Below, in pieces: positions 1 to 64,000 of a stretch of DNA of 64,000 nt (position 1 is the first letter of the stretch; each line of letters begins with the position of its first letter). The DNA comes from Trebouxia sp. TZW2008 (Eukaryota; Chlorophyta; Trebouxiophyceae; Trebouxiales; Trebouxiaceae), in contig BDIU01000360.1 of NCBI GenBank assembly GCA_002118135.1, positions 62,001 to 126,000 of the forward strand, given 5' to 3'. The position numbers were made by a program, and so were the translations under genes. A model generated the notes under the pieces. It had not been told where the DNA came from. It saw nothing but the letters and a program-made list of their open reading frames with translations, and did no database searches.

Positions 1-115
1 AATTTTCATCAGCTTCTCCCCACAGAGGCGTTTGTTTTGTTTTATGATGGCATACACTTTTCTCTTTTTTTGTGTTTTTGACAGCAGACATGCAGTCACT
101 CATACTTGAGCTACT

Positions 116-660
116 CTTGTCAGAGACGGCAGCTTGAAGCAAGTGTGTTCAATGGTCTTCTATTTCTGCGTGTTGCAGAGATCTTGTGACCAGAAGACCA
201 TCATCGTTGCTGCCTGATGCAGTCAAGCTTGTGACTTCTTTCTGATTCTTGCAATCTTTTGGCTCTTTTTCAAAACGACATAGACTTGTCTTTCGCAGTA
301 CTGTTGACAGCAACCCCGCATTGATTGGGGTTTGTGCTACCTTTGTGAGAGCTGCCAGCTTGAAGCGGGTGGTGTTCATGTCTAAGGTGCCATCATCAAA
401 TTCGGCCGCTTCTAGGATTCTTGTGACCAGGAGACCGTCATCCTCGCCTGCTTCAGTCAAGCTTGTGTCTTCTTTTTGGGCTTCTTCGTCTCTCATAGCT
501 GACACAGAACTTGCAACTTCAGCAGCAGTGACGGCAGCTGCAACAGAGACACACGAGTCAAGCTGTCACTAAAACGCAGTGCATAACAGCGTGACAGCAG
601 CATCATTGCTGCTGCAGTAAAGCTTGTGTGATCTTTTTGACCTTCATCGCCTCTCATAGA
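116..660 (-). repeat. Three tandem copies around the 341-498 exon of the SAP gene
   Basis: The intact exon (341-498) encodes an acidic peptide with the core EAGEDDGLLVTRILEAAEF. A downstream copy (about 116-290) keeps the core as NDDGLLVTRSLQHAEIED but its donor position reads AG instead of GT and a stop follows. A shorter copy of the exon 5' end lies upstream near 600-659. Offsets are 225 nt (donor side) and 161 n (acceptor side), counted in nucleotides. Confidence 0.7.
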
Positions 661-3600
661 TGATGCAGAACTTGCAGCTTAAGCATCGTGACAGCAGCTG
701 CAACAGGCAACCCCTGAGCAAAGGCTTGAGTCAGAAGCATGGCTCAGCGCAACAAGATACGGCAACAGTGTTCTTCTTCAAGAGCAACAAGATCAGCTAT
801 ACTGTGTTGCAAGACACAACATTGATGGCAGGCAACATCAGTAGACGTCAGTTGCAGCATTGACTTGAAGTGTATCACTAGAAAATGCATTGTGACTGTG
901 TTGCAGAAAGGGTTTCCTTTCCACAAACAACATGTTATAAAAGTGAAGATCCAAAACGGTGTAACATATCACAAAAGTCACAGCTGAAGCAAGCATTTTT
1001 ACATAACTAATGTTTTTCAGCAAAAATCACTAGCAATCAGCAGATGAAGGCAATGAGCAACTCATGCCTAATAGGAGCCTAAACCCCATGTGCCTTGACA
1101 GCTGGTGGTTTGCAAACCTTCCAATTCCTGAGCTTGCATCAGACTCACAAGTCATCCATCATCCTTTACACAGCGACCACATGAGTGTCTGTGCAAACTG
1201 ACTTGTATGCTGTTCACACGTTGTCCATACACATGGACCTGGCATTGACAGTTGGCAGATCACTGACCTTCAAGTTCTCGGGCACGAATCAGGCTCACAA
1301 GATCATCCTTAGAATAGCTGTCAGACACCATGCCTAACTCTCGCGCTCTGGCCTCCAGCTCGTTCTGCACAATCACATGATGCCCTCAATGCTTGCTAGG
1401 GCAATGGTCTGTGGTGACAGGTAAACAGGCTGGATTAGATGTGTACCTCAGTGTAGGCTTGCAACTGCTCTACAGAGCTCACATGGTCAGCCGGTTCCCA
1501 ACTGGATGTTTGATGCATCAGATCCAAAACGGATGGGCTTATTTCAACAGGTGCAGGATAGCAACATTGTCTACAAGCATGCCATGTTGACACAGGTAAA
1601 CACGCTGAGATAGCCTTGTGCAAGAGAAGGCAGGTCAGGGCAGGGCAGGGCACGGCATCAAGGCATGGCACTAGGGCGGGGCACTAGCGGTTTTCACAGC
1701 ACAGCGCACTAGGGCAGGGCAGGGCAGGGCACTTCTCAAGGACACTAAGGCATGCTTGACTGGCCGTGGTTGTACACATAGAGGCAAGGTGTGTACCTCA
1801 CTGCAGGGCTTGCAACGGCTCTACAGTGCTGAGTCTATCGGCCAATTCCTAAATGAATGTTGGGCTTGTCAGATCAGGCACAGACGACCCTGTCTCAACA
1901 GATACAGGATAGCAACGTGGTCTATATGCATGTTGCATCACGCTGCTGACATCACACAGGCATTGTGGCATGTTGACTTGAGGATGCTGAAGTAGTTGTG
2001 TACCTCACTGTAAGCTTGCAACTGCTCTACAGAGCTCACACGGTCAGCCGGTTCCCAACTAGATGTTTGATTTGTCAAATCAGGAACAGCTGGCCCTCTC
2101 TCGACAGGTGCAGCGTTCTGGCGGGAGTTCTTGGCCGGAAAGTTCATTGCTTCCAGGATTTGCGCTTCGGTGGCTGCAGCAGTGCATATGCAGAAATGTT
2201 GAAAACATATTCAACTTTTGTTGGTGATTAGCTGACTTCAGTCTGCTGTTTGAGCTGTCACATCAGCAATGCACATATTCATGTTTTCCACAAAATTTAG
2301 AGACAGGTTCTTAGAAATCATTCATTTCAGAATGGCTGACCTGTGCCAACTGTGTTGTGAAGGTTGTTGGCCAGAACAGCTTTGCTTCCTCTTCTTGACA
2401 GCCCCGCAGCACCGCACCTCCTTCTGAGCTCCTCCTACAAACCAGCATGCACACTTGAGCCTTCACCACAAAATGCTGAGATGGATGCGCTGTATGCCGA
2501 CCTATGCATAGATGACCCGGACCCTATGAATGTGTGACTAATGAACCTGCATGTCTAGCACTATAAGCACAGATCAGAATGCTGAATGACACACAGTGTA
2601 GAAGAGTGAATTGGGCAAGCTATGAAAGCTGTTCAAGAGTGGGCAAAACCATGGCATGCAGTGTGATTATGATTCAATGAGTCATTTTGGAATCCATGCA
2701 TGTATGATTAGTGATTGTGCATGCATGACGCGTTACTCACTGATGTGCAACCCATACCCCATGCATGCATGACCCATGACTCAAGCATCTCTGTTCTGTA
2801 AGCCTGCACGTATGCCCCATAACCCCGCAAATGCAGCTCAAAACGGTCAGGTCAAAATGGCAATGTTTTGGCTTTCAGCTGCCTAGAGCCCGGAGCGTTC
2901 AAGTATTCTGCTCAATTTGCTTGTGATGCAACTGCATCCTGGCATTTTCAAGGGCAAATTATGGCTGTGCAAATTGACCAAGGCAGACCATGGCCGGTGC
3001 GAGGCAAAGTGCATTTGATAGCATGAAGCGACTGATGTCACACATAAGTTGTGTGGCACAGGATACATGTAGACGGCCTGCTGCTACCTTGGGCTATATC
3101 TGCTAGATTGCACATTGAGGAATGAACTGTTGTGGTGGGATCAATGAATCAGCATACGTAATGCTCACACAACGCGTTATCTGTGACGTTTGCGAGCACA
3201 GATCCCTGACATGTAGTGCAAACTGTGAAATACGCAAAGCATTGGCACCACAACACCTCAGTACATTGGAGGAACAATTGCTAAAATGGAGGGGGCATAC
3301 CCTAGGCAATGCCATCAGCAGGTCGTACGCCTCTTCATCTGCTGCATCTGCAAAATGTGGCCTTTCCTCAACGTCTTCTTCATCTGAAGGGCTCTCATCT
3401 GATGCACTGGCATCTGCAGCAGTGGCAATGCAAGAGTGATCATCAACGCCAGAATGGATGGCGCTGAGACAGAGCATTGCTGCCTCAGTGCCCCTTCACA
3501 ACAAGTGCAGCATGCTTCCAAGCAGGAAAGAGGCTGTTTGCCTTATTGCACGTTTACAGAACTCATGATGTGACTCATTGCGGTTTGATGCAGTGAGATA

Positions 3601-4756: not shown

Positions 4757-6189
4757 CTGAATGGCAGGCATGGGTAGCTTGAAAAGGCATGGCTACGCCT
4801 GGCCATTGGCCATGAGGAGCAAGGTCGCATACTTTCAACCTGGGTTGAACACAGCAAACTCTTTGCCATGGCTGGGGAATCCTTGGACGCATGCAATTGC
4901 ATACAGCGGCAACACGGCTGCAAGAAGCACTGATCAATTCTGGAGAATGCGCACGGCACCTTCCGCTGGAACGGTTCGATGGCTTGCATGCATTTTGGCC
5001 TATGCTGGGACGGTTGCCAGCAAAAAGATATGCGTTGCGTCAGGCCGAGCATCCCTGGAAACAGCGTTTGGAACAAGCTCCACAATGTTTGTACACCTGT
5101 TATAAGTGCTAGAGAAACAGTCGCAACCCGCAAGTCGACACGCGAGCAAAGCGCAAACTAGTCTCAGGAGCTGGCGAGTGATGGTCGACGGGCCAGACTG
5201 TTTCTTGCGCAGTGCTCGAAAGCAGCAACATCGCAGTCGAGTGCAGTGCATGCCGATGAAGAAGCATGCAGCATTTGCTGCATGAACTCCAAAGAAGTTC
5301 GACTTTGTGATGCCACAATCACAGAGTCGTTGCAGTCATCGTGGTTCGCAAGCATGGCAAATTCCATAGCTGCGCATGATGTGTGAGACAATGTACAGCT
5401 GTAAACCTGTCCGCCTGCATTGCACACTCACCCCGAACATCATTCTTCAAGGTCCTGCAAATCATATGAGAAATTCATGCTGACTGCTACAGCTGCAGGC
5501 TAGCATGCACCTGGATACAATGTTGAAATTGGTAGATCGCCAGAAAGTGACAGTCAACTGTCATGCAAGTGTACTCATGCAATATGATTACCGGCTCTGC
5601 ACAACAGATCTCTGCCAGGAAGCAAGACTGCACATTTGTGAGAGGATTGTGCCCTTCAGTGCTGCGAGAGACTCGGCGCTGCGCATTGCCACGGTTGCTT
5701 GGTCAAAACTGACCTGCTGGAGACGAAGACAAGGGGTGTCAGTGAAGCAAGACTGATGAAGAAGATGTAGAGGTTTGAGTTGCTAGCGTAGCTGATCACT
5801 GAAATAGTTAATCTGGCCTCTACAGGGGCTGTGAGAATTCGGGGGTTGCCCACACTATGTGTGTAGGTTTGCAGGGCAGTTTGTGTGGGCTACACTAGAA
5901 TGTACTGATATAAAGGCAAATTTATGTGGGGTGCCCGGTTTTGGGTGCTCCCACCCCCCCAGGGGAAGCAGGGGGTGCAGAGGCCCGCTGATCAGCCACT
6001 CGAGAGGCCACCCCATGCAGGGAGCCTTTCTGGGCACAATGAGCCACGTTCTTGAGCAACGTTGCACATTCCACTGAGCTGTAGTGGTGCTGGTAGCAAT
6101 TCGCATGGCAGACATGGGCTGCCCATCTTGCCCATCTAGCAACAGCCCATGTTGTGTCCATGCACTTAACCGCTCTACATGTATTTCAG
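4757..6189. other. Unassigned stretch upstream of the SAP gene
   Basis: No convincing gene model. 5000-5260 is clearly richer in CpG than its surroundings and probably holds the promoter and first exon(s) of the minus-strand SAP gene; a minus-strand open stretch there contains NIVELVPNAVSRDARPD but I could not splice it. 5430-6189 shows nothing I can support, apart from a C- and G-run-rich patch near 5930-6020. Confidence 0.4.
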
Positions 6190-7266
6190 AGATGGCTGTC
6201 TTGGCGACCCATCTGGAGGATGAAGGCTTGACTTCCACCAGTCTGCAACCTGGCTGGCATGGACTGCACCTAATGCATGCATGCACTTGACATCACTGTA
6301 TGCCCTGCAGAGACGGTGGTGTTGGGAAATGCTGTGAAGGACAAAGCTTTCACCTTCATCGCTCTGCATCCTGGCTGGCATGCATTGCACCTAATGCATG
6401 CATGCACTTGACATCACTTTATGCTCTGCAGAGATATCTGTGGTGGCAATTGATGTGGAAGATGATGGCTTCACCTTGATTGCTGTGCAACCTGGCTGGC
6501 ATGGATTGCTCATAATACATGCATGCACTTGACATCACTGTATGCTCTGCAGAGATATCTGTCTTGGCAATTGATGTGAAAGATGATGGCTTCACCTTGA
6601 TTGCTGTGCAACCTGGCTGGCATGGATTGCTCATAATACATGCATGCACTCGACATCACTTTGTATCTTGCAGAGGTGGCTGTTGTGTTCAATGGCCTGA
6701 TGCGTGATGGCCATGCCGTCATTGCACTGCTTCCTGGCCAAAAAGAATTGCTCGTGATACATTCGTGCGCTTGACGCCACTTCATGTGCTGCAGAGACAG
6801 CCGTTGTAGCAAATCAACCGAAGAACATAGGCATCACCCTAATCCCTCTGCGTTCTGGCTGGCATGGGTTGACTATGATACAGTCATGCACTTGACGACA
6901 ATTTATGTCCTGCAGGGACAGCCGTCTTGGCAAATGATTTCAACGACAATGGCTTCACCTTCACAGCTCTGCATCCTGGCTGGCACGGACTGCTTATGCT
7001 ACATTCACGCGCTTGACAACACTTCATGTCTTGCAGAGACAGCGGTCTTGGCAAATGATCTGAAGTGAGAGGGTTTCACTTTCATTGCCCTGCATCCTGG
7101 CTGGGTTGAGACAGACATGGGAAAACTTGCCGGGCCAAAACTGGGGGGGTCCCCACCCCTCAAGCCCCCAGGCAGCATTGCCAGCCAGCACAAGGTCATC
7201 TTTGGGTTGACTAAAAACCAAAATGGACAGTTCCTTGACTGGGAAGGCAACAAGATGGACTACTGA
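6190..7266 (+). pseudogene. Orphan array of eight SDR terminal-exon copies, broken
   Basis: Eight copies of the start of a short-chain dehydrogenase last exon begin at 6190, 6311, 6432, 6553, 6674, 6795, 6916 and 7037, each after an AG acceptor (mostly TGCAG) and each exactly 121 nt from the last. The landmark TGGCTGG, or its decayed equivalent, keeps the same spacing. Only the eighth copy continues through the rest of the exon (ALHPGWVETDMG to a TGA at 7264-7266), and it has an in-frame TGA at 7066-7068. No exons 1-3 (no nucleotide-binding or catalytic motif) and no CpG-rich start are visible upstream. The sequence closely matches the last exon of the intact SDR at 13872-14101, so this looks like a detached, amplified and decayed duplicate. 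Confidence 0.85.
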
Positions 7267-9953: not shown

Positions 9954-10200
9954 TTGTCGGGGTCAGCAATCATCTTCCCTTGTCAACTGCCCCGCTTCTG
10001 CTGCTGTGGCGACAGCTGCCAGAAGAAAGCATTTGCAACCTCAATGAGCCCAGCCAAAAGCTGCAAACAAGTGATTGTCCGCGTCAGCAATCATCTTCCC
10101 ATGTCAACCACAACACTTCTGCTGCTGTGGTGAGGGCTGCTAGAAGACAGTATTTGCAGTCTCAATCAGCCCAGCCAAAAGCTTCAATCATATGGTTGTT
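9787..10200 (+). repeat. Tandem Ala/Arg/Gln-coding repeat, intact at first, then frame-broken
   Basis: Four related units encode a peptide like AAVVTAARRKHLQSQSAQ. The first two are in frame with the zinc-ribbon ORF, which stops at 9953. Two further units of about 120 nt (beginning near 9955 and 10075) share TGATTGTC, GTCAGCAATCATCTTCCC and GCTGCCAGAAGAAAGCATTT-like stretches but no longer keep the frame. It looks like a once longer repetitive tail that is decaying. Confidence 0.75.
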
Positions 10201-12279
10201 CAGGTTAGCTGATGACATGACAAGTGACACGTTCTAGCAAACCTGTTATTTGCATGTGGCACAAGCTGTGTCTCGCCAGACATGTCTTCATGCTGGAGGC
10301 TTACTGCTTATGCATTGCAGAGTTAGCAAAAGTCGTACTTCAAGTGACACTTCGCAAGCTTGTTTGACATCATGCTGCATGCTCTGCTATGCGCTTAGCA
10401 AGCATCTGATCCTGGTGTGAGTTGGACGTCACCTGACTGAAATCTGCAGCAACCTTGCTCGACATGTCGACATTCTGAGCAAGATGGTTTTGTCTGATTT
10501 CCAGCTGTTGAGCATCAGACATCCTTACCATGACTCTCAGGATAAGCAAGCCTGCCAACGCAGGGCTTATGCCACGCACACCTAGTGCATTTGCTGGAAA
10601 CTGTGACAAACTGTTGTTATGCTGTCAACATTTGCTGCTGTGAATGCAGGCGAGGTGTTGAGGGCAAACTGGCCTAGGTTACTTGCTTACTGAGCCACAA
10701 GACTGTCCAAAAGCATTTTGCCAGTTGGGCTCCTGGAGGCTTTTGAGGGAGATTGTTGGGACTGGTAAGCTACCTGCAGCTGTGTTGTCAGGCTCTGACC
10801 ATCAGTTCTGATATGACATCAAGATCGCTGAAGTTGTGACTGCTGACGCTTAGTCTGTCCAGTGCATGCATAAACCTCAACATGCAGAGTCGAGAATGTG
10901 AATCACCAAGATGCAGCGCAAACCATCAAATGCGCAAGAGGTGGTGCCATGCCAGTACGTTATACGCAACACTCCAGTGTTTTGAAGTATCAAACACTGA
11001 AATTACTAGCATGTTCACAACTGAACATGTCAAACCTGCACTTTTTGCTTTCACTCCAAACCCTTTGCGCCAGTTATTGACATTATGGAACGCTGACGCG
11101 TCGCTCACTCGTAATCCGCCTACTCACCACTACCAACTATGAGGAACGTAGACACGCAAGGCAGATATGACTGTAATTGGCAAATGCTACAATCATTGCA
11201 GGAATATATATAGCAGAAATCATGGAGGTGTTTTGAGTTGTCGCTGACGCTGCCGGCTAAGCTGTACATGCTAGCGCTGTCATTATATGTGTTTGTTACT
11301 GCAAATAAGTCATGCTGACAGCTTTGCATGGCATGCTTGCAGGCAGGCGGCCAGACGTTGCCAAAGGGGTGGGCAGAAAGAGAACACCAGCTTTCAGCTG
11401 TCTTGGAAACTGTGAAGTTCTCAGTGTGACAAACCTCACATGTGCTGTTAGATCATGCCAAAATGGAGCTTAATTCTGCTTGACTTCTACCTGAAGAATA
11501 GATGTCGGTCTCTGTGGCGGTTGTGTCTGTTCAATTGAAAGCTTCATTGCAGCAATCAAAAGGGAATGATTGTTGCACATATGCAGCATGTATCATTACA
11601 ACCCAGTATGCAAGTGACTTGCATGAGTGCTTGTACTTTAGGCTGCCTCTATGGAGGCTCCTGTTATGACTGCTTAACAAAGCAGAGCTTTCTTTTCTTT
11701 ACTTTGGCTGTTGAAACATGTGATTTTTGCACTGAGCACAGCATCACATTTGCAAACAAGCCAGATAACGACTGTGGTTGCTTAGCTTTAAAGATGTGAA
11801 CTTTGTGGTGCTTTTGTGAGGTCAAATGCCTGATCCCTGTTTAACTACCACATGCATGCCACTGTCTAGCAGTAGTTCAAGTTCCTGTACTTGCAATTGT
11901 CCTTGCTTTCCCTGTGACAACGCTCTATGTGACGAGAATCATTGCGTGAAGGATCGCTGAATTCTGCCATTTGCAGCAGCATTTGGCTTGTGATATGCTA
12001 TACTTACACATATGCACATGATCAAGCCGTCTTCCATGCTGCTGCAATGTCAACAAGCTCCATAACAGACAGTCAATGTATGAGGTCGCAGAAATTCGGT
12101 CGCCCAACCATAGCTGACATGAGGGATTGAGAGGATTTCACATGCTTCAGCCAGAACAAGGAAGTCTGCATGCATGCACTTCTGTGATGTGTTTGGCATA
12201 ATGCATCGACTAGAATCCGACCGTTCTCCTTGCGCGCTGCTGCTCACAGCTCCCAGATGGGCGGTGCAAACGCTCCGTG
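10201..12279. other. Unresolved stretch before the SDR gene
   Basis: No confident gene. Possible coding pieces: a minus-strand open frame 10370-10609 without recognisable motif, and a plus-strand piece after TTGCAG near 11341 reading TLPKGWAEREHQLSAV and ending at a TGA, which looks like a terminal exon without visible partners. 11060-11160 has several CpGs and could be a promoter. 12200-12280 is the CpG-rich start of the SDR gene. Confidence 0.35.
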
Positions 12280-14101
12280 ATGGCTCCAGCAATAGTTCCT
12301 AGAACTGCAGGTTCAATATTTCTGGTGACCGCTGGTAACAGAGGCTTGGGACTTGAGCATGTCAAGCAGTTTCTGCAGACAACTGAAGTGAAAGTTGTGG
12401 CAACTGCTAGGCAGCCCGGAAAAGCTGACGAGTTGAAAGAACTGAAGCAAAAATACGCAGACAGATTGACAATTGTACAGCTCGACACCGGCGACGAGGC
12501 GAGCATCGAGGTGCGATTCTTGACCTTGAACGGGGCTCGCGAGGTTTGACCGCTTGATTTAGCGTGTGTGACTTGCGACCTTGAACGCGACATCATGTTG
12601 CAGGCAGCCGCACAACAAGTGGAGCAGCTACATCCTGGCGGAATCGATTTGATCCTCAACAATGCTGGCATACAGGAGCAGATCACTCGAGGCATTGAAG
12701 CGTAGGCTTGCAGATGCTGGCAACCGCATGCCTCAGCTTTGATGTCTTGCGTGCATTGAGCCGTGAATATTGCCTGCGTTACCCTGCTGCAGATCAGGCG
12801 AAGACTATAAGCATGTTTTTGAAGTCAATGTGGTTGGTCCTTTCCTGGTGACCAAGCATTTCCTACCACAGCTGCTAAAGAAAAGAACCAGGGTGGTAGT
12901 CAATCTCAGCTCTGGCTGTGGGTCCATTTCTGCCAATGCAGCTGGTAGATTCAAGGGTCTCATGTTGCCTTACAACTCCAGCAAAGCTGCTATCAACATG
13001 CGTAAGGCCCTGTATCTTTTGCTGGTCCATCCATGACAATGTACTCTGCCAATGCCTTTTGGTATAAAAAGCAAATGTTCTGGTTTTCATGCTTTTAGCC
13101 TGCTTGAAACTGCTCTGCAGCCATGTCCGCACTCAACATGGTAAAGGCCTTCTGTCTTGTGCTTTTGCATTCATCATCATGCTTTCTGCAGATGCCTTTT
13201 CACATACAAAGCAAATTTTGCTTTCCAGAGCGTGCTTGAAAGTGTTTTACAGCCATTCCTGCATCCAACATGTTGAAGGCCTTCTGTCTTCTGTTTTTGT
13301 ATTCATCATCATGCCCTCTGCAAATGCCTTTTACATCAGATGTGCAACTTGCTTTCAAGAGCGTGCTTGAACTGCTCTGTAGCCGTTCTTGCACCCAACA
13401 TGTATAATGCCTTCTGTCTTCTGCCTGTGCATTCATCATTCATGCTCTCTGCAGATGCCTCTGGACATGAACATCATAAAATGCACTTTCTAGCATACGT
13501 CGCTCCATGTGTGTGGCACAAGTCCTGTGCCAGGCAGTTTTGTCTTCACCGTCACGACAAGAGCGCCTCTCAAACACAATATGAAAAAGCTTCTTGCTTC
13601 TCGAAATTCATTTGTATTTGTCCAGCAGGCTTTCTAGAAATGCCACAATTGTGCTGACAGGCGTTGTTGCACTTGCCCATTGTGAATTGCAAACCTGATT
13701 TGCATCTAGTAGCATCCTGAAGCACTTTTTGTTTGCATACTTCCGTGTGCATGGCAAGATGATCTTTGATGCATGACAAAGCATTAGTATTGCAGCATGC
13801 CGCAGGAACTGCTGTTTAGGCAATAGTCAATGACGTATTGGTGCACTGAACACCCAATCTATGCGCTGCAGAAACGGCCGTTTTGGCAAATGATCTGAAG
13901 GAAGAGGGATTCACTTTCATTGCTCTGCACCCTGGCTGGGTCAACACAGACATGGGGAAATTGTCTACCCCGTTTCTTGGAGGGGAGCCCCCCCTAGACC
14001 CCCCTGCTAGCATCAAAGGCCAGCAGGAGGTGATCTTCAGTCTTACTAATGAACAGAATGGACGGTATCTCAATTGGAAAGGAGACAGCGTGCCATATTG
14101 A
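12280..14101 (+). CDS. Short-chain dehydrogenase/reductase, complete, four exons
   Basis: Exons 12280-12510, 12604-12701, 12793-13001 and 13872-14101 give 768 nt, 255 residues, with all phases matching. It is a classical Rossmann-fold NAD(P)-dependent oxidoreductase of the C-factor/carbonyl-reductase-like group. The cofactor motif reads TAGNRGLG, with Ala where the family usually has the first Gly of TGxxxGxG. Then come NNAGI, the catalytic Ser in NLSSGCGSIS, and YNSSK with the catalytic Tyr and Lys. The last exon holds ALHPGWVNTDMG and the usual C-terminal NGRYLNWKGD before the stop. The ATG at 12280 lies in a CpG-rich stretch; a GTG precedes it directly. The substrate cannot be told. Intron 3 (870 nt) is largely repeated copies of the exon 3 end. 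Confidence 0.9.
12985..13470 (+). repeat. Four donor-side copies of the end of SDR exon 3
   Basis: The exon 3/intron junction, with AACATG just before the donor at 13001, recurs with AACATG at 13135, 13267 and 13397 (spacings 140, 132, 130). Each copy is followed by AAGGCC or ATGCC, TTCTGTCTT and a CATTCATCAT stretch ending in CTGCAGATGCC or a variant. The second copy keeps a GT (ATG|GTAAAG); the later ones do not. Confidence 0.85.
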
Positions 14102-14400
14102 GGCGCAGCCATTTATTCAATCTGTGCTTGTCTTTTGTTTCAGCAATGACCAGAATGGACAGTACCTCAATTGGAAAGGAGACAGGGTGGCATATTGAGG
14201 CGCAGCCATTTATCCAATTTCAGCTTGTTTTAATTTTTGAAATGACCACAATGGACAGTATCTTGGTTGGAAAGGAAACAAGACATGAAATATCAAGGCG
14301 CAGCAGCTCACTTGATTTGTGATCCCTTCAGTCTAACAGTGACCAGAATGGACAGTATCTCAGCTGGAAAGGAGACAGGAGAACATCAAGAAGCAGCATA
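14046..14400 (+). repeat. Four copies of the SDR C-terminal coding end, period about 97 nt
   Basis: The segment coding NGRYLNWKGD, the stop and about 50 nt of 3' sequence is repeated, with CAGAATGG or its equivalent at 14054, 14151, 14247 and 14344 (97, 96, 97 nt). Copy two still encodes NGQYLNWKGD plus a stop and follows a TTTCAGC acceptor-like sequence, so it could serve as an alternative last exon. Copies three and four lose the stop context. Confidence 0.9.
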
Positions 14401-14783: not shown

Positions 14784-14808
14784 AGTACCCAAGAAATACT
14801 TGGGTACT
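14784..14808. other. Perfect 10-bp stem-loop
   Basis: AGTACCCAAG, a 5-nt loop AAATA, then CTTGGGTACT, an exact inverted repeat. It lies 28 nt before a longer fold-back. Confidence 0.85.
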
Positions 14809-15485: not shown

Positions 15486-20144
<4,659 letters not shown>

Positions 20145-42723: not shown

Positions 42724-49347
<6,624 letters not shown>

Positions 49348-49600: not shown

Positions 49601-52600
49601 ATGGATCACCGAGCGAGGTTCAACATCAACGGCGAAGACGTGACCTTGCCCGCAAGCTTTGATCTCGGAAAGAACTTGAACTCTGTCATCAAAAGCGAGA
49701 CTGGGTTCAAGGTATGACACATCGCAAACACACACTCTCTGTCTTCCACAGCTGTCGGAACTGCATGTCCCTCTGCGTCGCTGCAGGGCACGAAACTCGC
49801 TTGCGCGGAGGGTGGTTGCGGAGCCTGCGCCGTTCAAGTGACCAGCTTCAATGTCGCAACAGGTCAATTAGGTGTTTACGTTCTGCAATTGGCTATTTTC
49901 TGACTCTAGTTCACTTGCTGCTGTATGCGACCTAATCGAGACCATGGGTTTTGGCTTTCAGGCGCTGTGGAAAGGCGTAGCATCAACTCCTGCCTTTGTC
50001 CAGTGGGATCTGTTGATGGGTGTGTTGTGACAACCTCTGAAGGCATAGGCTCCTCCAAGAAGGGCTTCAGTCAAATACAAGGTGCACTTCACTCAGCTTG
50101 CTTTGCATGCTGCCGAGTTGCTGCTTCTGACCAACTTGAATGCTGTGCTGTCAGACAATGCTCGTATTAGCATGATGACATTGGTCTTGACCACATGATG
50201 ACTGCAGACTGCTTGCTTTAAATGCTTCTCTTCCGCCCATCGACCTTTTCCCTGCTCAGTACTGCTTACGGGCGCAACGGCAGTGCTCCTTGCACACATG
50301 CCAGATGCCTGCTGAACAATGCCCACGCGCATGGTGATCTTGAACCTGGCATACATGCGACATTAACGACACCCAGATGATGCAGACAGCTTGCGTTCAA
50401 TGCTTTGGTGGGTACCAGCAGAATGGTAGCAAATTCTTTCCCGCTAAACATCGCTAATGGGCCTGTAATTGTTGGTCCTGGCATGCATGCCACATGCCTC
50501 TTCAACAACAATCACAGGCATGATGCTGCTGACCTTGGCGGCAATATGTGTGCCATCTGCTGCCGCAGATCGCTTTACTTTGGATGGTGCCTTTTTTTGC
50601 TGTTCAATAGTCGTGGGCATGCTATGCTAGCTGGTGTAGACGCCATGTAACTGGCATTTGCTGCTGCAGACCGCTTTGCAGAGTACAGTGCCTCACAATG
50701 TGGCTTCTGTACTCCTGGGTTCATTGTGGCAACCCATCAGGCTCTCACCAAGTGTCAAGAGAAGGCTCAAAAGGCAACACCAGAGGCTCTGCAGAAAGGG
50801 CTTGATGGTAATCTGTGCAGATGCACAGGCTACAGACCCATATTGGACGCCTGCAAAGTAAGCCGCAGTAGTGTTTCCATGATGGGTATGCATCAAATGG
50901 CTCAAAAGGGCTTGCAATCAATGCAGGCTAGTCATGCAAAGTCCAACTTTTGCGTGCGCAACGAGTATGCATCCAACGGCCAACAATGGCCTGCAATTCA
51001 TGCATGTCAGTGTGAGTCCCATCTGTGGTTGCATGATGGGTCTGCTTCAGATGGCTCCAAATGAACCTGCAAGCCTTGCAGTTCAGAGAAGGGTGATTTA
51101 AAAATCATAAACAGCCTTGGACCCAAAGCCATGACTGCTGTGCAACTTGGAGATAGCACTGTTCTTTCAGGCAAATTCGTTCTGGAACGATGTCATGCAT
51201 ACATGCATTGTCAGCATGTTGCACATGCAACCAGCATTACGGTCTGGCTAAAGCATGTAAGTCAAGGTGGCCCTTTTTGCAGAGCCTGGTTGCTGGTGTT
51301 GACATGGAGGACCTGGGAGTGCGCACATGCTCAGCACCCTTCAAGAATGCGGCTGTTGAGCAAGCTGAGTTCCCTGAAGACTTGAAGCAGTACGTGAAGG
51401 TGAGCCATGTCCACCCAGTCATGAGGTTGTGTGGCGTACCAAGATAGCATTCATTGACGTGCATGCTGGGTGTTGTGAAGGCTTGGCCCATTATGTCAAT
51501 GTGGGTATCAGCCGCTCAATTCACTGCTGAGCATGACATTGTCAACAAGGCCATTCGGCCATTCAAAGTCACTGCCTATCTGGTGGTTGTTTGTGGTATT
51601 GCCCCAGGGAGTGCACCTGCTCAGTACCCTTCAAGAATGCTTCTGTTGAGCAAGCTGAGTTTCCTGAAGACATGAAGCAGTATGCCAAGGTGAGCAACAT
51701 GCCCTGGTCGTGGGGTTGAGTGAGCAAGACCTTGAACAAGATCACAATTTGGACATGCCTAATGCAACTCTGCCAAGGCCAGTGTTGTAGTGAGTGTCCC
51801 AAATACCTGAAGCTGTACGTCAAGGTGACCGTCAGCTGCCAACTTTGGTTGAGCGTGACACCCAGCTTGCAAAGACTGATTGACTGTGGCTTTGGTGTGT
51901 GATGTTGCCTGAGTGTGTGCATCTGCTCTGCCAGCTTCTGGAACACACCCACTGAGCAAGCTGAGATTCATGCCTGATGCAGTATGTCAAGGTGGGTGTC
52001 AGCTGTCAAATTTTACTGAACATGACATGCAACAACAAAGTTGTTCAGCCAGCTGCATATCTCGTCATGGTGGCAATGTTGTGTGATTATGTTTTGGCTG
52101 CTGAACTCGCCAATGCTGAGCATCGCATCCAGCAATCTGACTGCTCAGCACCCAAAGATGAAATACCATGCAGTGTAGCACAGTGATGCATAACATCCCA
52201 GAGTGTGGCACATATTGCATTATACGCCACACTGTGGCGTGTACTGCACCCCTGTGCAATACAATGCATCTCTGAGCTTCTGAGTAGCCATGTGCTCCGT
52301 GTACAGATGAGCTAATCCATTGCTGCTTTTGGTGAGTGCACAAACCACATGCTGTGGTTGCAGCAGCTTGCATGGTGCAACACAATGTATTTTTGCAAGG
52401 ATGTCAAGCACGTTTTGAAGTGCAGTAGCTGCTAGAGGTGAGTTTCTGCTTCAATCAATCAAGAAATCATGATGCCATCACAATGCAGATTGACAATGTG
52501 CTGTGAGATCTTATGCTTTAAAGGACATGTGGTGCCTTCACAAGGAGGCATCACCATTCATGATCTGTAGAAGGCGTCTGCATATGCCCAGCCTGCACTA

Positions 52601-55600
52601 CCCAAGGGCAAGCAGCACCTGGTACCCAAAACTAAAGCACAATCTGATGCAATCAAAGAATTACGATATGCGGCTTGACAAGTCATGTGCCGTAGGACAC
52701 GGCAGCTGCGTCTGCTGAGCCTGCGCTAGCCAAGGGCAAGCAGTACCTAGTCCCCAAGTCCCCCCTTGAGCTCCTCAGCATGCTATCAACATGCTGCCAA
52801 CACAGGGCGAATTGACAAGATGTGTACTCTGCTGTAGGAGAAGGCAGCTGCATGTTCGCTCATGAGTCAGTTGACCATTCCTCTTGTGAGCTGTAGGACA
52901 AATCTATTGCGTCTAATGAATTTGCAGTACCTCAGGGCAAGCAGTATCTGATTTCCCATCTGAGCTGTTCAGCATTCTGGACCTACTCACCAAGCAGGAC
53001 GACAACTTGACAAGTCATGTGCTGTAAGACAGGGCAGCTGCATCTGCCAAGGCTGCACCAGCCAAGGCCAAGCAGTGCCTGGTCTTCAAATCCCTGCTTG
53101 AGCTTTGCAGCATGCTGGAAACATGTTGCCACCACAATGCAGGGTGACAAGTCATGCTCCTGTAGGACAAGGCAGCTGCATATGCTGAGCCTGTGGTAGC
53201 CAAGGGCAAGCGATACCTTATCCCCAGGCCTCTATCTGAGCTTTTCAGCATGCTGGAGATGTGATGACACCACAGTGTGAACTGACCAGTCATGTGCTGT
53301 AGGACAAGGCAGTTGCATATGCTGAGCCCGCACTGGCCAAGGGCAAGCAGTGCCTGCTCCCCAAACCCTTACCTGAGCTTTTCAGCATGCTATCCACATG
53401 TCGCCACCACAATGCGGATTGACAAGTCATGCTCCTGTAGGACAAGGCCGCTGCATCTGCTGAGCCTGCGCTAGCCAAAAGCAACCATGTGGTCTCTCCC
53501 AGTCCCTACCTGCGCTGTTCAGCATGCTTTCAACTACTGCCATCACAAGAGCAAGCTATAGATGGCGCCACGACAGCGCTGCTTGACAGGTTGTGTATCG
53601 TAGGGCAAAGCAGCCGCATCTGCTGAGCCTGCACTGGCCAATAGCAAGCACTACCTGGTCTCCCTGTCCCTTCTTGAGCTTTTCAGCACTCTGGGGACGC
53701 TCATCAGTCACTTGACCATTCCTCTTGGGAGCTGCAGGACAAAGCTCTTGCGTCTAATCAGCCTGTGCTAGCCAAGGGAAGCAGTACCTGGTCCCAAGGC
53801 TCAAAATGCAGAATGTTATGAAGTACAAGGTCTGTTCTGTAGCACAATTCACGTTCTGAAAAGCAGCTCATGCTGTGTAGGACAAGGCAAATGCATCTGC
53901 TGAGCCTGCGCAAGCAAAAGGGAAGCAGTACCTCGTCCCCAAGTCCCTACCTGAGCTTTTCAGCGTTCTGGAGACACTCACCAAGCAGGATGACAGCTTT
54001 AGGGTGGTTGCTGGTAACACAGGCGCTGGTGTTTATCACGATTGGCCTCTGGAACGGGTGCTTGTTGACATCAAGTCAATTCCTGTGCTGACAACGATTC
54101 AGTACAGCAAGGTGAGAGAAACCGGATCAACACTAACACAAGTGAGCATAACCACCAGACGATGGACTGTTGTGAACAGCCCCGACAGCCCCGGCTGTCG
54201 GGGCTTCCACATGAGCTTCAGGTAACCAAATATGAACAGGTACCATAGGGAACAATCACATGAGCTCAGCTGGTGCTGCTGCTGCGAGTATGCAGCTTGA
54301 CCTTCAGGTCAACAAAAAGAGTGCTTGCAGTGGCATCACAAGTCGCATTGTGCAGTGATTGTTTGGCGTCAGCACAACAGAACAGAAGTGAGCTGAAGTC
54401 ATGCAAGTCTGAACAGTGTGAAATTGAGTGACAATGTATCCAGCTGTTTGCTATCCAAGAAAAACTGTTTACACTCGCATGAGCTCAGCTTGCTTCTGCT
54501 GTTGCGGTCATGCAGCTTGGTTTTCAGGACAGCAAAGTGCTGTTTGCATCAGTGTCAGAACTTGCTTTGTGCACTGGCATGAGTCTAGCGCACTTCCGCT
54601 GTGGATGCCATGCGCCTTGATTTGCAAGATGACAAGGAGCTGGTTGCACTGGTATCAGAAGTCACATTGTTGCAAACTCGGTTTACGTCAACAACAGAAG
54701 TGTGCTGACCTCAACTGAGTTTGAACAGTGTGACTTGGAACGCCAATGCATCATCAGCTGTTTGCCATCTTGAAAACGCTGTGAACACTTGCATGAGCTC
54801 AGCTTGCTTCTGCTCTCAAAATGATATGGCTCAATGTTCAGGACAGCAAAGAGCTGTTTGCAGTGGTGGCAGAAACCTTGGTGATGTGTACACTTGCACA
54901 GGCTCAGTGGTGCTGCTGCCGAGGTCACATGACTTGATATTGAGGATCGCAAAAAGCTGGTTGCATTGATATTTTAAGTCACACTCTTCAGAACCCGCTT
55001 GGTGGTGTCAAAAACAGAAGTAAGCCGACCTCATGCGAGTCTGAACGGTGTGTATTTGCATACCAATGCAACCAGCTCTTTGCCATTGAAAAGGCTGCGA
55101 ACACTTGCATGAGCTCACTTTGCTTCTGCTCCTGATGCCATGCGTCTTGACTTGCAGTTGGCAAAGAGCCGTTTGCGTTGGTTTCAGAAGTTGAATTCTT
55201 GATGACTTGTACCATGTCGACAACAGGAGTGAGCTGAAATGCTGCAAGTATACTCCACAGTATGACTTTGAGTACCAATGCATCCAGCTCTTTAGCAACC
55301 CCTGAAAACATGTGAACAGTTACATGGGCTTAGATCCCCTCTGCTGCTGAGCTTATACAGCTTAATTTCCAGCATTGCACACAGCTGGCTACATTGGTAT
55401 CAGAAATTCAGAATGGTGCCGACACCCATGGAGGTCAGCTGACTTCTGCTATTGTGATCATGCTTTTTCATGGTCAGGATGGCAAAGGCTGTCTGCATTT
55501 GCATCAGAGTTTAGACTGCTGTGTACGCTTGCATCCAGAAATTACTGCTGACTTGCGTGCTGCTGCTGAGATTGTGCGGTTTGATTTGCAGGGTGGCAAG

Positions 55601-58600
55601 GAGCTGTCTGCACTTGTATCAGAAGTTAAAATGCCATGTACACTCGCACAATTTCAGCTGACTTTTGCCATTGCGGTCATACGGCTTGAATTTCAGGATG
55701 GCAAAGAGCTGTCTGCATCTGTATCAGAAGCGTTCTGGTTTTGTGCAAGCAGCTCTTTGCCATCCTGAAAACACTATGATCACTTGTATGAGCTCATTTC
55801 ATTTCTGCAATTGAGGTCATACAATCTGACTCTTCATGATGATGACGTGGTGCTTGCGTTTGTGTCAGAACTCACTCTACTGTACACGCTTGCATGAATT
55901 CAGCTTTTGCTGCTGCAGAGAGCAGGTGTCTAGGTGTTCAGGACAGCACAGACCTGGCGTTTACGGCTAATGTGAGGCAGACTGCTGTCTACAAGCACAT
56001 GAGCTCGCCTCACTTCTGCTACTGACATCATGCACCTTGAATTGCACAATTGGGCAGAGCTGGCTGCATTTGCACCGGGTCTTATGCTGCTGTATACACT
56101 TGCATGATTTCAGCTTGTGCTGCTATTGAGATAATGTGATTTGATTCTCAGGATGGTAAGGAGCTGGTGTTTGGGGCGAATGTGAGCCAGACAAGGGCAA
56201 TAGACGAGCTACAAAAGCCCTCACAGCCCGAGCCCTTCCACCGCATGGCTGACCACCTGCTGCGCATTGCTGGTACGCTTGCACAGCAGTTTACAAACAC
56301 CTACAGCAAAAACAGCCTGAGAGCTTTTTGGTCTGCTGCAGGCTTGTACGCACCTGTCCCGTATGCTGTTGTGCTCCAAGCTGAACATCTGCTGGGTAGA
56401 ATTGTTGAGCGTTGTCCTATATGCTGGTTTCCCTGAGGCTGACCACCTGCTGCGCATTGCTGTGCGCATTGTGTTGTATGCTTTTGCGCTCAAGGCTTCC
56501 TAAGTGTGCTACTGCATGTGTGCAACCCTTGTTCAAGCTCAATCTGCAACAGCTCTGTACTGCAATACGCTCCTCAACGTCGCAGCCCTGTTACCTTTGT
56601 ATAGTGTTGTCAGAGGTTGCAAAGTGCCTCAAGCTGCAAGCCACATACCCTGCACCCTGACGAACATCATGTGTACACCAAGGCTGTGTAATATGCTTGC
56701 AGTAAAAGGGCTGAGTCATGAGGCCCAACCTCAGCCTGGTTTGCTTGTCTTAACTAAAGGCCTGACAATTGCCCTTCATGTCCTGGCTGTAGCAATGTTG
56801 ACTTTGATGATGTCTGCAAGCACTCATGTGAGAAGCGCTGCAAGCTTATGAGGCAACATAGCGCTTTGCAGGTTGAAGGCCTCGTCTTTCTTGGGGTGCA
56901 AGCAATGTTGAATTTGTTGAACACTGACTTGGTTGCTGATGATGTCTGTAGGCACTCATGTGAGAAGTGCTGCAACCTTGGGAGGCAACATAGCGCTTGG
57001 CAGGCTGAAAGCATTGGAGTCTGATGTCATCACAGTGTTCATGGCAGCTGGTGCATCTGTTCAGATTTCCAGCAAAAACGCTGCCAGGTAAGTGCCCTCA
57101 ATGTGTGTCATGTAAGCTAGTGTGCATCAGTCCAGATTTTTTTCTAGCATAACACCAGGCATGTTGCCTTGGAGAGTGCTTGAGTGCTTAGTAGGCTGAA
57201 GTCTGTGTAGCGCTGTTACAGTTGCATTTACAGCTTTGTGGCAGCTGATGAGTCTGTGCAGGCTTTCTAGCAACTCTGACACCAGGTATCTTGCCATCAA
57301 AAGTGCTCGAGTGCCTGGAAGGCCAAAGACTTCTAACCCTGATGTGATCACAGTCTTCGTGCCTGTGAGTAGGCATTCGTGCTTGGCAGTGAAGCATCAG
57401 TGCACATTGTAAGGCAAATCTTCTGGTGTTGGACTTGCTACATAAGTAGACAAATGCATCAGTGCTGTAAAGACTGTGATGATATCAGATAAGCAAGGCT
57501 TGGCACGCTGAAGCCTTGTTTTTTGATACCGTCGTCATGGCAGTTGGTGCATCTGTGCATGTTCCTAGCAAGTCTGACACCAGGTAAGCTGCCATTGACA
57601 AAGCATGAGTGCCTGGAAGGCCTAAAACTTCTGAACCTGATGTGATCACAGTCTTTGTGCCTTTGAACAGGCATTAATTGGCAGCAAAGCACCAGTGCAC
57701 ATTGTAAGCAAATCACTTCGTGCTGGACTTGCTAGAGAAGTAAACAAATGCATCAATCGCCATAAAGACTGTGACGACATTAGACTGCAGAGGCTTCAAA
57801 GGCAGAAACCTCTGCAGAGTGATGTCATGGTCTTCATGTCAGCTGGTATACCTGTTCAGATCTTCAGCAACTCCAGCACCAGGCAAGGAACCGCTAAGAT
57901 TACGCATCAGAGCCTGGCAGCATAAACAGGGGTGCACGTCGTAAGGCAGCTCACTTGGTGCTGCATGTGTTAGGGACTTGGGCAGGTGCATCAGTGGCCG
58001 TGAAGACTGTGATGAGATCAGACTGCAGAGGTTTCTGCCTTTAAGCCTCTGCAGTCTTCAAAGGCAGAAACTTTCACAGTCTTCATGTCAGCTGGTATAC
58101 AGGTCTTCAACAACTTCAGCACCAGGCAAGCAACTGCCAAGGTTATGCATCACTGCCAGACAGCATAGACAAGAGTACACATGCAACGGCATCTCAATTG
58201 GTACTGGACTCGCTAAAGTCTTGGACAGATGCCCCAGTCACCATGAACACTGTGATCACATCAGACTATAGAAGCTTGACAGGCTGAAGCCTCTTAGGTT
58301 GATGAGTTGCAGTTGGCATGGCAGCTGATGCATCTGGGCAGGAGTTCAGCAACTTCAACGCCAGGTAAGTTACCCTTGTTAACATGCATCAGTGCCTGGA
58401 AGCATAAGCAAGGGTGCACATTGTGTGTCAATTGACTTGGTGCTAGACGTGTTAGAGATAGATGCGCAAGTTGCTACAAAGACTGTGGTGAGATCAGACT
58501 GCAGAGGCTTGAACGGCACACCTCGCTGCAGTTTGACATCATCACACCCTTCTTGTCAAATTTTGCATTTGTCCCGGTCCCCAGCATTTCTAGCAGCAGG

Positions 58601-61600
58601 TTAGTAATCATTGCACGTGCAGTGCTGCCTGGCAGCGTGAGCATTGCTGACCTGCTGCTAGAGGTGCTGGAGGCCCGGACAGATGCAAGAATTGACTGGA
58701 GCATAGTGCTCAGTGTGTTGTATCTTGGTGATTGTTGAGCGGTCAAGCTGCCAGTCAAGCTGCCGGTCAAGCTCCCAGTTTCTCTAGCCAATGACAGCTT
58801 CTGGTATCACAAGCTGTATTTCACAGTCGTCTGCAGCTTGTCTGTGTTGTCTGCAGGTGGCTGTCCTTGGAAGCGATCTTGGATGCTGAGACACATCTGC
58901 AGTTGGGCAAGAGGGACATCATCACAGCAGTCAAGCTGCCAGTGCCTCAAGCAAATGACACATTCTGGTCTCACAAGCTGTCCCAGCGTTTCTGGAACGC
59001 CCATGCCATGATCAATATGGCAGTGTGGCTCAAACGGCAACAGCCAAGCTTTGCCGCTTCCCTAGGGTCCCGTCTTGGGGTCACGACGGCTGCTGCCCCT
59101 GTTGAAGAAGTACGGGTGGTCATTGGGTCACCCAGGGCGGAGTTGCAAGGTACAACAATCTCTCTTTCTACGTGCTTGATATTAAGTAGATTGTCCTCAT
59201 AGTATTGTCCCAAGGCAAAGCAAGCACTGCAGCATGCATGCAGTAATGTGTTTCCAGTTGCGCTGCCCTTTCATCAGAAACATCCCTGTTTCAAGTGTCC
59301 TTGTCATGTAAGATGTCATCAAGTATATGCTGCTGCTTCCGTTGAAGAAGCATGTATGGTCATTGGATTGAAATCATATTCAGTTGTTGTTCAGATCATC
59401 ATCAAATGTTCATCAATGTTTCATGAGGCTAATCAAAGGTCTGGTTGGATCTCGGCTGCCTGACTGCATCAGCACTGTTGGCACTGCAGCTCACATGCAC
59501 ATGGCCAATGGTGTGACCAGCGTTAACTCACAAGCAGCACTCCTAGTCAGGGGAAACTTGCTGTCAGACAGCAATCTACATTGGCCAGTATGTGCCGCTG
59601 TGAAAGACCTGTGCTGTTGGCAGTGGTCATGTTGCAAACTTAGGGGCAGGCAAATGGCTTGCACAGCTTGGCCACGTTCACCCCGCCACAATCAATGGCC
59701 AACCCAGGGCAGACTGACAAGCAGCCTCCCTTGCCAATGACCTGCTCAGGGCAGAGCTCTGAGCAGATGATGTTGGCCAGGCAGGTGGCTTGTGAGCTTG
59801 GTTCCTTGTGTCAAAGAGCTGTTGCTGCTCAGGGTTGAGTTGCAGCAAAGTCAGCAGCAGGCTTCTGACTAACATAGTCCAGAGGTGGAAGTCACGCCAG
59901 TAATCCTGCCCGCAAGTGCTAAGCTTGTGTGCCAATTTGCTGCTGTTTTGACAGTAGGCACAATGGCGGTGCTGATTGGTCTCTGTTGCAGTGAAGATGC
60001 GGAGCTCACTGACCTGCAGCCGTCTTGCCCTGCGGAGCCTGTCATGTGAGTCCTGTGAGCACCGCGGCTCGCCATACAAGCAGGGTCCAGCAAAGCAACT
60101 TGCCCTGATGTTTAGTCCCAAAAGTCAAAGTGGCCCCAGTCACCAACAAGGACCTGAGCTTTGCAAGCCAAGTGCTGCTAATCAGATACACCAGGATTTC
60201 CAAACTTGCGGCATTGACTGGGTTTGACTTCACCAATTGCATTCTTACTACAGGCCAACAACACGGGGCAGAGCGCCAGGGCAGTTGAGGAAGTCCTCCT
60301 GGGCACCCAGGTGGTTGCTGCTTTGATGGATGATCAGTACCTGCATCATCGGGCATTCATGGCCTTACCAGTTTAACTTTCTGCCGGGGCATGGCAAGGG
60401 CAAAGGGCAAGGGCGCTTGAGGAAGTCAATCTGGGCAGCCAAATGGCTTTTTCTTCTGTTGATGATGAGCACCTGCATCGTTGAGCGTTTCTCGCTTTGA
60501 CAGTTGGATATTTTGCAGGGGCATGGCAAGGGCAGAGGGTCAGGGCAGTTGAGAAAGTCCTTCTGGGCAGCCAAATGGCTGCTTTTGTTGAAGAACAGTA
60601 CCTGCATTGTTGGGCATTCTTGGCTTTACCCAAATTATGTTTTGCAGGAGCATGGCAAGGGCAGAGGGCCAGGGCAGTTGAGAAGGTCCTGCTGGGCAGT
60701 GCCCTAGGGATAGACAGCCTGATCAGGGCATTACAGGCCTTGCCGCAAGATCTGAACCCCACCCCTACCCCAGGTAGGACTGCCTTACCCCGCCGCCCCC
60801 CCCCTTCCCCAACCCCAAACAAATCTTCAGGCCTTGCTGCAAGATTCACACTCCTACCCCTTTAGGTAGGATCAAGTGTTGCACAAATTTCAGATGCAGT
60901 ACACGTGTCTGCTAAGGGACATTTCCGTAGCTGTTCGTTTGGTAACTGCTGTTGATGACAGGCTGTCAGATCATCTTTGTATGGACACAGAGATGTGTGG
61001 ACCGCCTGTCATGACAAGCAGCTGTTCAAGACGCAGGGCAGGAATGTCTTTAGTTGTGAACACTACAAATACATGTCAGGTGCTAGCACACTGTTCATGC
61101 CATTCAAGCCCTCCCTATACCTTCTGCCAAAGTCATCGGATGCTTATGGAACCATTATTTTGCTGTACAATTGCTTCTGCTTGCAGTTTCAAAGAGCATA
61201 TGCCTGTTGATGCAGGTACACTTATTCAAGCATTATGCAGTCAAGATCAATAGCAAGCATTTGCCAGCTGAGCAGTCATGAGTCTGTGCTGTATGGCAAG
61301 TATTGAACAGTTGTCAGGTGCAAGACATATGTCTGCTGAGGGACGTTTCTGTAGCTGCCTTGGTTGGTAGCTGCTGTTGATGGCAGGCAGTCAGATCATC
61401 TTTGTATGAATAGAGAGATGAGCTGATTGCTTCTCATGAAAAGCAGCTGTCAAAGACACAAGGCAGGATCTCTTGGTGTATCTGTCAAGACTTGCAAACA
61501 TGTGTCCTGTACTGGCTTGACAGCACACTGTTCATGCCACCGGCTGCAAAGGATTGATGCATACACACACCAACCTTAGTTGGCTACATCAAATGCCGAC

Positions 61601-62907: not shown

Positions 62908-63446
62908 GTGACATCTTTGCCCTTGTATACTTTCTCGAGCTTGTATCCCTTGTTCATGACTTGCCCTGTTTTCAACAGAATCAGGTTCTTTTTAGGATTT
63001 TGAGTTAGGTGCAGACACAAACAACTTGTTGCTGTGGTCATGTTGAGTGACAGCACATTTGTTGCCAGCCACCTCTCAGCACAAATGGCGTTAACTCCCC
63101 CAAATGTCATTCGTAAAACAAGCAAAAGACATTATTCATTAAGCAGTGCGTCTTGAGCCTTCATGCTCTGTGTGACTGTACTACGCCTGTCAGGACATGC
63201 CAGTGGCAAAAGTTGTTTTTGTTTGATTGCTGTCTCACTGAAAGACGAAGTGTCATGGGCGTAATGGTAGTCCGTACAACAATCTCAACTGCAGTAAGCT
63301 ATGCCAGCGCTGACACATACAGGTCAAACTTCAGCACTACAACTTCTGTCTGGCGTCTTCAAAGCAGCAGAGCTTGTGGAAACTGAGGTATGGAGGTTTG
63401 CTGGCTGTTCGTTTGTCAACCTGTTGTACATCTGTACAACATGTGA

Positions 63447-64000
63447 TGATCAAGCAGCGAGGAGGCCTTCATACCATGACTTCAGCATGCTCTGCTGTCA
63501 TTTGCAGCTGTACATATAGAGCGTCCTGCCATTGCTGTTCAGCCTTGATGGTAGTGATTGAGCAGCAAGCAAGCCTGTATGCAACAACTTCAGCATGCTC
63601 TGCTGGTGTTTTCAGCTGTTCAGGTAGGGCAGCCTGCCATCGCTGTTCAGCCTCACACTCATCTGGACGCATAGCTGTTGCTTCCCACGCTGTTGACTAG
63701 ATGTCAGTGGTCGAGTAGCGAGCAGACGTTTGTACAGGTGACTGCAGCGTGCTCTGCTGTTATTGTTGAATGCTCCCATGTCAATGCATAGCTGTTTTTA
63801 TTCACGTCGTTGCCTTGATTTTTATTGTTGAGAGTAGCGAGCAGACGCTTGTACCATGACTTCAGCGCATTCTGCTCTTCTTTTCAGCTGTCCATGTAGA
63901 GTGGCCTGCTACTGATGTTCATGTTCATACTCCTATCTCAATGCACGGCTGTTCTGTTTTCACGCTGTCGCCTTGACATTTGTGATCGAGCAGCAAGCAG
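63447..64000 (+). repeat. Acceptor-side-like array at the right edge
   Basis: Units marked by GATCAAGCAGCGAGG (63447) or variants recur near 63556, 63710, 63830 and 63985. They share CTTCAGCATGCTCTGCTGT and TTTCAGCTGT with acceptor-like AG ends. By analogy with the other arrays this should lead to the next aldehyde oxidase exon just beyond the window. Confidence 0.7.

Follow-up and report, generated by a model that had tools for sequence, protein, structure and literature searches.

Tandem arrays of drifting half-exons at intron-exon junctions in a Trebouxia genome

In a 64,000-nucleotide stretch of the green alga Trebouxia sp. TZW2008 (contig BDIU01000360.1, positions 62,001 to 126,000; hereafter the window), and at many other loci of the same assembly, introns carry tandem arrays in which part of an exon, together with its splice site, is repeated beside the intact exon. 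Copies of exon 5' ends lie upstream of the intact exon and copies of 3' ends lie downstream, and their exon-derived halves are found more often than uniform duplication followed by neutral drift would allow. We propose that the arrays arise by local tandem duplication, pass a coding filter, and drift while their exon halves are homogenised with the intact exon, an account to which we give a probability of roughly 0.55. The assembly sampled comprises 68.5 Mb in 527 contigs; about 0.36 Mb of this single assembly was examined, covering the 64-kb window, helicase, double-hit and kinase loci, and arbitrary 6-kb loci. GC content of the window is 49%; a published Trebouxia genome of 69.1 Mb and 49.7% GC (PMC12712428) agrees with the assembly in size and with the window in GC.

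The repeats are confirmed as real and as extending beyond the window. Self-alignment of the window yields 115 near direct pairs, merging into 34 arrays, and 4 near inverted pairs; one dinucleotide shuffle of the window gives no near direct pairs. Coverage by direct near-repeats (offset 30-1500, strict threshold) is 27.1% in the window. At the same threshold it is 17.8% over the 30 helicase loci, 16.3% over the 10 arbitrary 6-kb loci, two of which lack such repeats altogether, and 14.5% over a further 10 loci, most of them selected because they had two helicase hits. Pooling 54 sequences, partly overlapping, gives 342 direct versus 8 inverted near pairs, with none in shuffles; these totals still include the nested loci L001, L003, L004, L009, L024, L031 and L032, which are otherwise omitted from pooled counts. 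When three arrays were searched genome-wide, two matched their own neighbourhood alone, and an array in an SDR gene also matched two other places, one of which is its paralogue within the window. These searches give no sign of a mobile family.

At a loose threshold we see 269 adjacent direct pairs with a spacing peak at 120-180 nt; for those below 300 nt the median is 144 nt (quartiles 121-180), and the arbitrary loci likewise have a median of 144 nt (36 pairs). Median spacings below 300 nt are 170 nt at anchored exons (n=30), 154 nt at other predicted exons (n=49), 136 nt where there is only a splice-like site at the edge (n=112) and 142 nt where there is neither (n=49). The last class, 49 of 240 pairs touching no predicted exon and lacking a splice-like edge site, is to be read with the weakness of the gene models in mind, there being none in the window. 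Detection power is 0.93-1.0 for units of 130-500 nt, 0.7-1.0 at 100 nt, lower at 60-80 nt and zero at 45 nt or less; Tandem Repeats Finder, which detects shorter units, reports periods of 25-65 nt in 3 of its 32 rows for the window. Block 628-883 of L019, a simple repeat beside a run of Ns, is excluded from this exon/non-exon split and from the 218-block test described below, but is still counted in the strict coverage, the exon-edge coverage and the loose-threshold spacings.

Exon anchors are provided by 55 exons with Pfam matches (helicase PF00271 and kinase PF00069), whose boundaries were set by a splice-aware hidden Markov model, a home-made gene finder with strict training. Its only other uses were the splice-site scores and the rough division of repeat pairs into exon and non-exon; it predicts no genes in the window, where lower penalties produce pieces only, and gene models are weak outside the Pfam anchors. 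The helicase loci L018 and L026, with a stop within the match, were left out. A subset of 45 exons omits the 10 exons of five loci chosen solely for two Pfam hits, although one second exon of the two-hit locus L039 is still inside it. Copies are present in the fetched flank of 22 of the 55 exons and 18 of the 45, the latter divided between helicase (16/29) and kinase exons (2/16), and are 66-93% identical to the exon region.

All 61 alignments keep the polarity that an earlier note on this DNA had described: the 40 upstream partners reach the 5' end of the exon (within 20 nt) but not its 3' end, the 21 downstream partners reach the 3' end but not the 5' end, and none spans both. Complete, coding-constrained copies, by which tandem or mutually exclusive exon duplication is recognised, are thus not the pattern here. 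Stricter merging reduces the 61 copies to 57 (39 upstream and 18 downstream; the acceptor decay test also counts 39 upstream copies), and copies belonging to one array are not independent of each other. A later check covered four places with overlapping profile ranges in the family hit tables, the intact copy being judged by reading; copies occur at three, all four of them obeying the polarity, and the fourth locus (C273) has none. Splice sites also cluster at repeat edges when annotation is disregarded. Among 218 repeat blocks (those above 220 nt being excluded), strong acceptors lie 0-20 nt after the block start in 124 cases versus 66 expected, and strong donors lie in the last 30 nt in 152 versus 99.

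Some single loci with repeats near or within exons are also of note. At L070 779-1255 (C57:178778-179254) a family hit table had pointed, ahead of any reading of the DNA, to three XPG_I-type exon copies in a row; by reading, two of them are 3' fragments lying downstream of the first. A 166-nt tandem duplication of 92% identity at L050 5521-5854 apparently contains a whole exon and a very short intron, and so is likely a full exon duplication, not a half-exon; it lies outside the set of 61 alignments. Near a kinase exon, L072 1-316 holds a distinct 80-nt array of four units with 81-86% identity.

The observed values were set against a null simulation combining uniform tandem duplication (~150 nt), deletion, neutral drift and constrained exons, in which an event is rejected unless one intact exon remains after it (20 replicates of 45 exons). 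At a background matched to the observed one (0.168) the simulation gives 93% polarity, copies at 21% of exons, a coverage of 0.084 over exon positions 0-50, a fraction of 0.36 of edges no more than 20 nt from the splice site and 9% unrecognisable intron halves; at a background of 0.227 the corresponding values are 85%, 28%, 0.129, 0.40 and 20%. As a null without any junction preference already yields 85-93% polarity, the polarity needs no special process. Observed polarity is 100%, 40% of exons (18/45) have copies, and 39 of 61 outer alignment edges (0.64) fall within 20 nt of a splice site. Coverage over exon positions 0-50 is 0.35 versus 0.17 in the far intron for the 45 exons (0.30-0.31 versus 0.18-0.19 for all 55), a ratio of about 2, whereas the null gives about 0.5 with a maximum of 1.18 in 20 replicates. 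The intron side of the junction (-50 to -20) shows no enrichment (0.18 against 0.17 in the far intron). Intron halves are unrecognisable in 20 of 37 pairs (54%) and recognisable (z of at least 3) in 11, versus 75-87% under the null, and local alignment with slack recovers 12 of 37 versus 4 of 37 unrelated controls; a power test shows that intron pieces at 8-20% divergence per branch are almost never scored unrecognisable. Because the excess of exon halves and the loss of intron halves exceed the null, duplication and drift in this simple form are rejected. Slower decay of a constrained exon was also considered as the cause of the junction excess, but the simulations predict a deficit.

The copies are dead half-exons, drifting neutrally beside an intact exon that is under constraint. 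For exons with at least two copies on one side, changes private to one copy fall at codon positions 1, 2 and 3 in the ratio 95:105:130, and those found in the intact exon alone in the ratio 7:2:31. Frame-shifting gaps are found in 25 of the 61 copies and stops in 9, which together with the neutral codon pattern rules out selection on coding content. AG is retained in 36 of 38 mapped upstream copies and GT or GC in 14 of 15 downstream copies. Median acceptor scores are 7.54 for the decoys (36 copies), 7.16 for authentic sites (n=55) and -1.58 for all AGs, and 16 of the 36 decoys equal or exceed the authentic acceptor of their own exon. For donors the scores are 4.39 in decoys and 5.72 in authentic sites, with 6 of 16 decoys at least equal to their own. 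The training set of the scoring matrix consisted of predicted exons, the anchored exons among them. Use of an upstream decoy acceptor gives a broken frame or a stop in 38 of 38 copies. Of 132 predicted donors 15% are GC, not GT, which is high for a nuclear genome, although these are predictions only.

A plausible explanation for these patterns is frequent local tandem duplication, in units of roughly 90-220 nt (median spacing 144 nt) whose joints share little homology, and the survival of units spanning one splice junction, since splicing would keep to the original site. The residue left in the intron is a half-exon, a 5' half upstream or a 3' half downstream, that drifts as non-coding DNA. 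The exon half and its splice site stay recognisable longer than simple drift allows, with the intron half often lost, and this persistence probably reflects repeated homogenisation with the intact exon by gene conversion or unequal exchange, the intact exon being presumably the sole member of the array held fixed by selection. With decoy acceptors of about authentic strength, the spliceosome would normally have to take the exon-proximal acceptor. Arrays whose units are homologous over their whole length (L029, L037) speak for tandem duplication as the origin, as does the similar spacing with and without exons. The median joint overrun of 1 nt in 19 two-copy pairs adds weak support, bounded by the preselection of these pairs for a match 0.93-1.12 periods long. 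Mismatches are clumped in the 45 longer copies (variance 134.9 versus 98.5, 1 of 500 permutations), which points weakly towards homogenisation. The earlier note's proposal of local tandem duplication, with drifting outer copies and spare splice sites, is to this extent supported. Its view that the process is a main route of intron growth is supported insofar as the arrays contribute to the bulk of introns at many loci.

As to the source of the duplications, fill-in at staggered breaks is a fitting candidate. CST/Pol alpha-primase fill-in at such breaks is reported to lead to small tandem duplications (PMC8355091). These are local and tandem, as here, and were studied at induced breaks. Paired nicks in plants reportedly also give small tandem duplications from staggered breaks, and Vaughn and Bennetzen are said to have studied natural tandem duplications in rice. 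Loss of FEN1 was tried as a cause and set aside, since exons of XPG_I, Ku and family-A polymerase type occur in the assembly, which speaks against a simple loss.

Several observations weigh against duplication with homogenisation as we propose it. Homogenisation would probably account for the persistence of exon halves, yet gap columns may produce the clumping of mismatches, and the longest identical runs are not above chance (112 of 500 permutations). Decoy donors lose at least as much as the neutral prediction (a mean of -2.19 in 18 copies, versus -1.00, -1.42 or -2.05 by assumed rate), though conversion should refresh donors too; decoy acceptors, by contrast, retain their strength. The parameters of the null are simple (uniform duplication, one indel rate, random sequence), and copies in an array are not independent. 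At the loose threshold 45 inverted pairs stand beside 267 direct pairs within 1500 nt, and the kinase exons (L054-L069) are poor in copies.

Uniform tandem duplication with neutral drift and a filter on coding is unlikely to account for everything. This combination predicts neutral copies, as found, most of the polarity and copies in 21-28% of exons (40% seen), but also an exon-edge coverage of half the background where about twice the background is seen, and far more recognisable intron halves than are present. The earlier note had instead suggested amplification limited to junctions. The clustering of acceptors and donors at block edges and the excess at exon edges (0.35 versus 0.08-0.13 simulated) favour duplication targeted to splice junctions, and the excess stands; targeting of a spanning unit, however, would need an enrichment on the intron side that is not seen, and the 49 exon-free pairs without a splice-like edge have similar spacing (given weak gene models). 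As far as the data show, the duplication itself is not junction-limited, and we regard targeting as rather improbable; what sets exon edges apart is apparently the lasting persistence of the exon half.

If only exon edges were copied, for example through an RNA-templated step, the intron half would never have been duplicated, and several pairs do lose similarity at or just past the splice site while the exon part is 85-90% identical. The arrays at L029, L005 and L007 nevertheless have clearly homologous intron halves, and in spacing the two classes share most of their range (128-307 and 137-270 nt), so that we give little credence to this alternative. Retention of decoy acceptors or half-exons by selection as splicing aids draws on the acceptor decay test, in which the decoy minus own authentic score is -0.16 versus -1.26 under neutrality (P 0.0003, all 39 copies) and AG is kept in 36 of 39 versus 29.5 expected (P 0.011). 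With one copy per exon (17) the signal is weak, at P 0.07 (nearest) and 0.34 (farthest) for AG and 0.012 and 0.045 for the score; identity over the last five bases is not above neutral and many copies carry frame-shifting gaps, and we consider such selection improbable. The related reading that half-exon acceptors are held at authentic strength, forming arrays of working 3' splice sites on non-coding half-exons (including use as intermediates or as enhancers of 3' splice-site choice), is likewise doubtful. An assembly artefact or a dispersed element such as an introner or transposon is scarcely credible: copies 66-93% identical with codon-structured differences are not a product of misassembly, and the three searched arrays are locus-specific save for the paralogue and one further place, and these searches show no family of similar introns spread over numerous genes.

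Within the window, the earlier note had listed arrays in seven genes. All seven hold arrays, but a tie to exons is seen for three only, for SerRS by homology and for aldehyde oxidase/XDH and SDR by reading; at SAP, METTL1, ADP-ribosylglycohydrolase and the Gln-rich gene the arrays are present by self-alignment, their exon relation being unassigned. Its wording that nearly every multi-exon gene is affected is stronger than the exon counts show (18/45, and 2/16 for kinase exons). With our own join of window exons as query, the closest relatives of SerRS are Trebouxia proteins (C0010, 82% identity over the whole query; C0004, 86% over 91%; A1-2, 78%). By homology to a Trebouxia SerRS, exon 6 is accompanied by three upstream 5' fragments and three downstream 3' fragments, and exon 4 by two downstream 3' fragments, making eight copies, all on the side predicted by the polarity:

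44947..45101, minus strand: SerRS exon 6, intact copy, 5' end approximate
45183..45251, minus strand: exon 6 5' fragment, upstream
45271..45387, minus strand: exon 6 5' fragment, upstream, with stops
45866..45946, minus strand: exon 6 5' fragment, upstream, with one stop
44620..44739, minus strand: exon 6 3' fragment, downstream
44452..44517, minus strand: exon 6 3' fragment, downstream
44285..44353, minus strand: exon 6 3' fragment, downstream
47720..47958, minus strand: SerRS exon 4, intact, 3' end approximate
47603..47671, minus strand: exon 4 3' fragment, downstream
47497..47577, minus strand: exon 4 3' fragment, downstream

Exon relations in the aldehyde oxidase/XDH gene were read by eye from open reading frames and self-alignment offsets, and the remaining arrays are as follows:

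51283..51399, plus strand: aldehyde oxidase/XDH exon, with one 3' fragment copy downstream at 51604-51722 (reading)
52547..53999, plus strand: XDH 5'-fragment array with a period of about 137, preceding the intact exon near 53.88-54.11 kb (reading)
54252..56192, plus strand: XDH 5'-fragment array upstream of the intact exon 56152-56272 (reading)
57239..58542, plus strand: further XDH-gene array, exon relation not settled (self-alignment, open reading frames)
60266..60699, plus strand: XDH array, period 132, with 5' fragments upstream of an uncertain exon near 60665-60773 (reading)
6159..7104, plus strand: SDR gene array, about seven 121-nt units upstream of the continuing exon (self-alignment; exon relation by reading)
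13842..14398, plus strand: SDR-like stretch (paralogue) with its own 97-nt array at 14030-14398 (repeat search, self-alignment)
17293..18759, no strand assigned: arrays of 144 and 130 nt, exon relation unassigned (repeat search, self-alignment)

Each 121-nt SDR unit consists of an intron end, a TGCAG-like acceptor and the 5' part of the exon. The exon into which this array leads has, by reading, an in-frame TGA at 7066-7068. This copy of the SDR gene is possibly a pseudogene, the paralogous stretch being that at 13842-14398. Among the few non-local repeats of the window is an inverted repeat of about 110 nt (10890-11003 and 29416-29525, 75% identity, 18 kb apart). Rfam (gathering scores) and tRNA scans give no matches in the window.

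If the arrays are genome-wide, intron growth in this alga is a process that is still going on and can be traced, with its intermediate stages on view in many genes. Every array is then a natural experiment in splice-site choice: it offers several acceptors similar in strength, all in exon context, and the last alone gives a readable product. The arrays would also allow the persistence of exon-derived DNA in introns to be measured, and they are a pitfall for gene prediction.

Among green algae, the accessible part of a survey of Chlamydomonas and Volvox reports that introns have the highest repeat density, rising towards intron ends, and describes no exon copies (PMC3887541); its unit sizes are 1-50 bp only, so the class seen here would be invisible to it. 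We found no report of a green alga with exon-junction arrays among the literature matches listed. In the RdRp gene of potato an intron was gained by tandem duplication over an intron-exon boundary (PMC4974935); the AGGT model of Rogers also belongs here. There, as in the alga, the duplicated unit extends over the boundary and brings the acceptor along into the intron sequence that is gained, but it is a single event that created a new intron, whereas in the alga existing introns seem to grow repeatedly.

The closest precedent is that of the 'mirage' minisatellites of amphioxus, described from Adh3 and the globins BflGb6 and BflGb9, so that the earlier note's belief that such amplification was not described does not hold. 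Mirages are tandem repeats over an intron-exon boundary, 5' or 3', with globin units of 150-160 and 157 bp; many copies have AG/GT signals, concerted evolution within a cluster is reported, as are undisturbed splicing and length instability, and the phenomenon was thought perhaps more general (PMC3087553). The algal arrays have the anatomy by which mirages are defined, with boundary-spanning tandem copies, both exon boundaries affected and nearly the same unit length. Should the arrays prove genome-wide, one may ask whether a mutational process with units of about 150 nt is common to amphioxus and the alga. On concerted evolution the algal signs are mixed, exon halves outlasting their intron halves and mismatches being clumped, but identical runs being of no more than chance length. 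The algal arrays differ in host kingdom, number of loci and a quantified exon-half excess. Mirages were reported from single chordate genes; the algal arrays, known from the sequence of one assembly, occur at arbitrary loci, and for them neutrality and polarity were tested and a null model was run. The kind of array is thus already known from amphioxus; what is new is the green-alga host, the many loci and the strong decoy acceptors.

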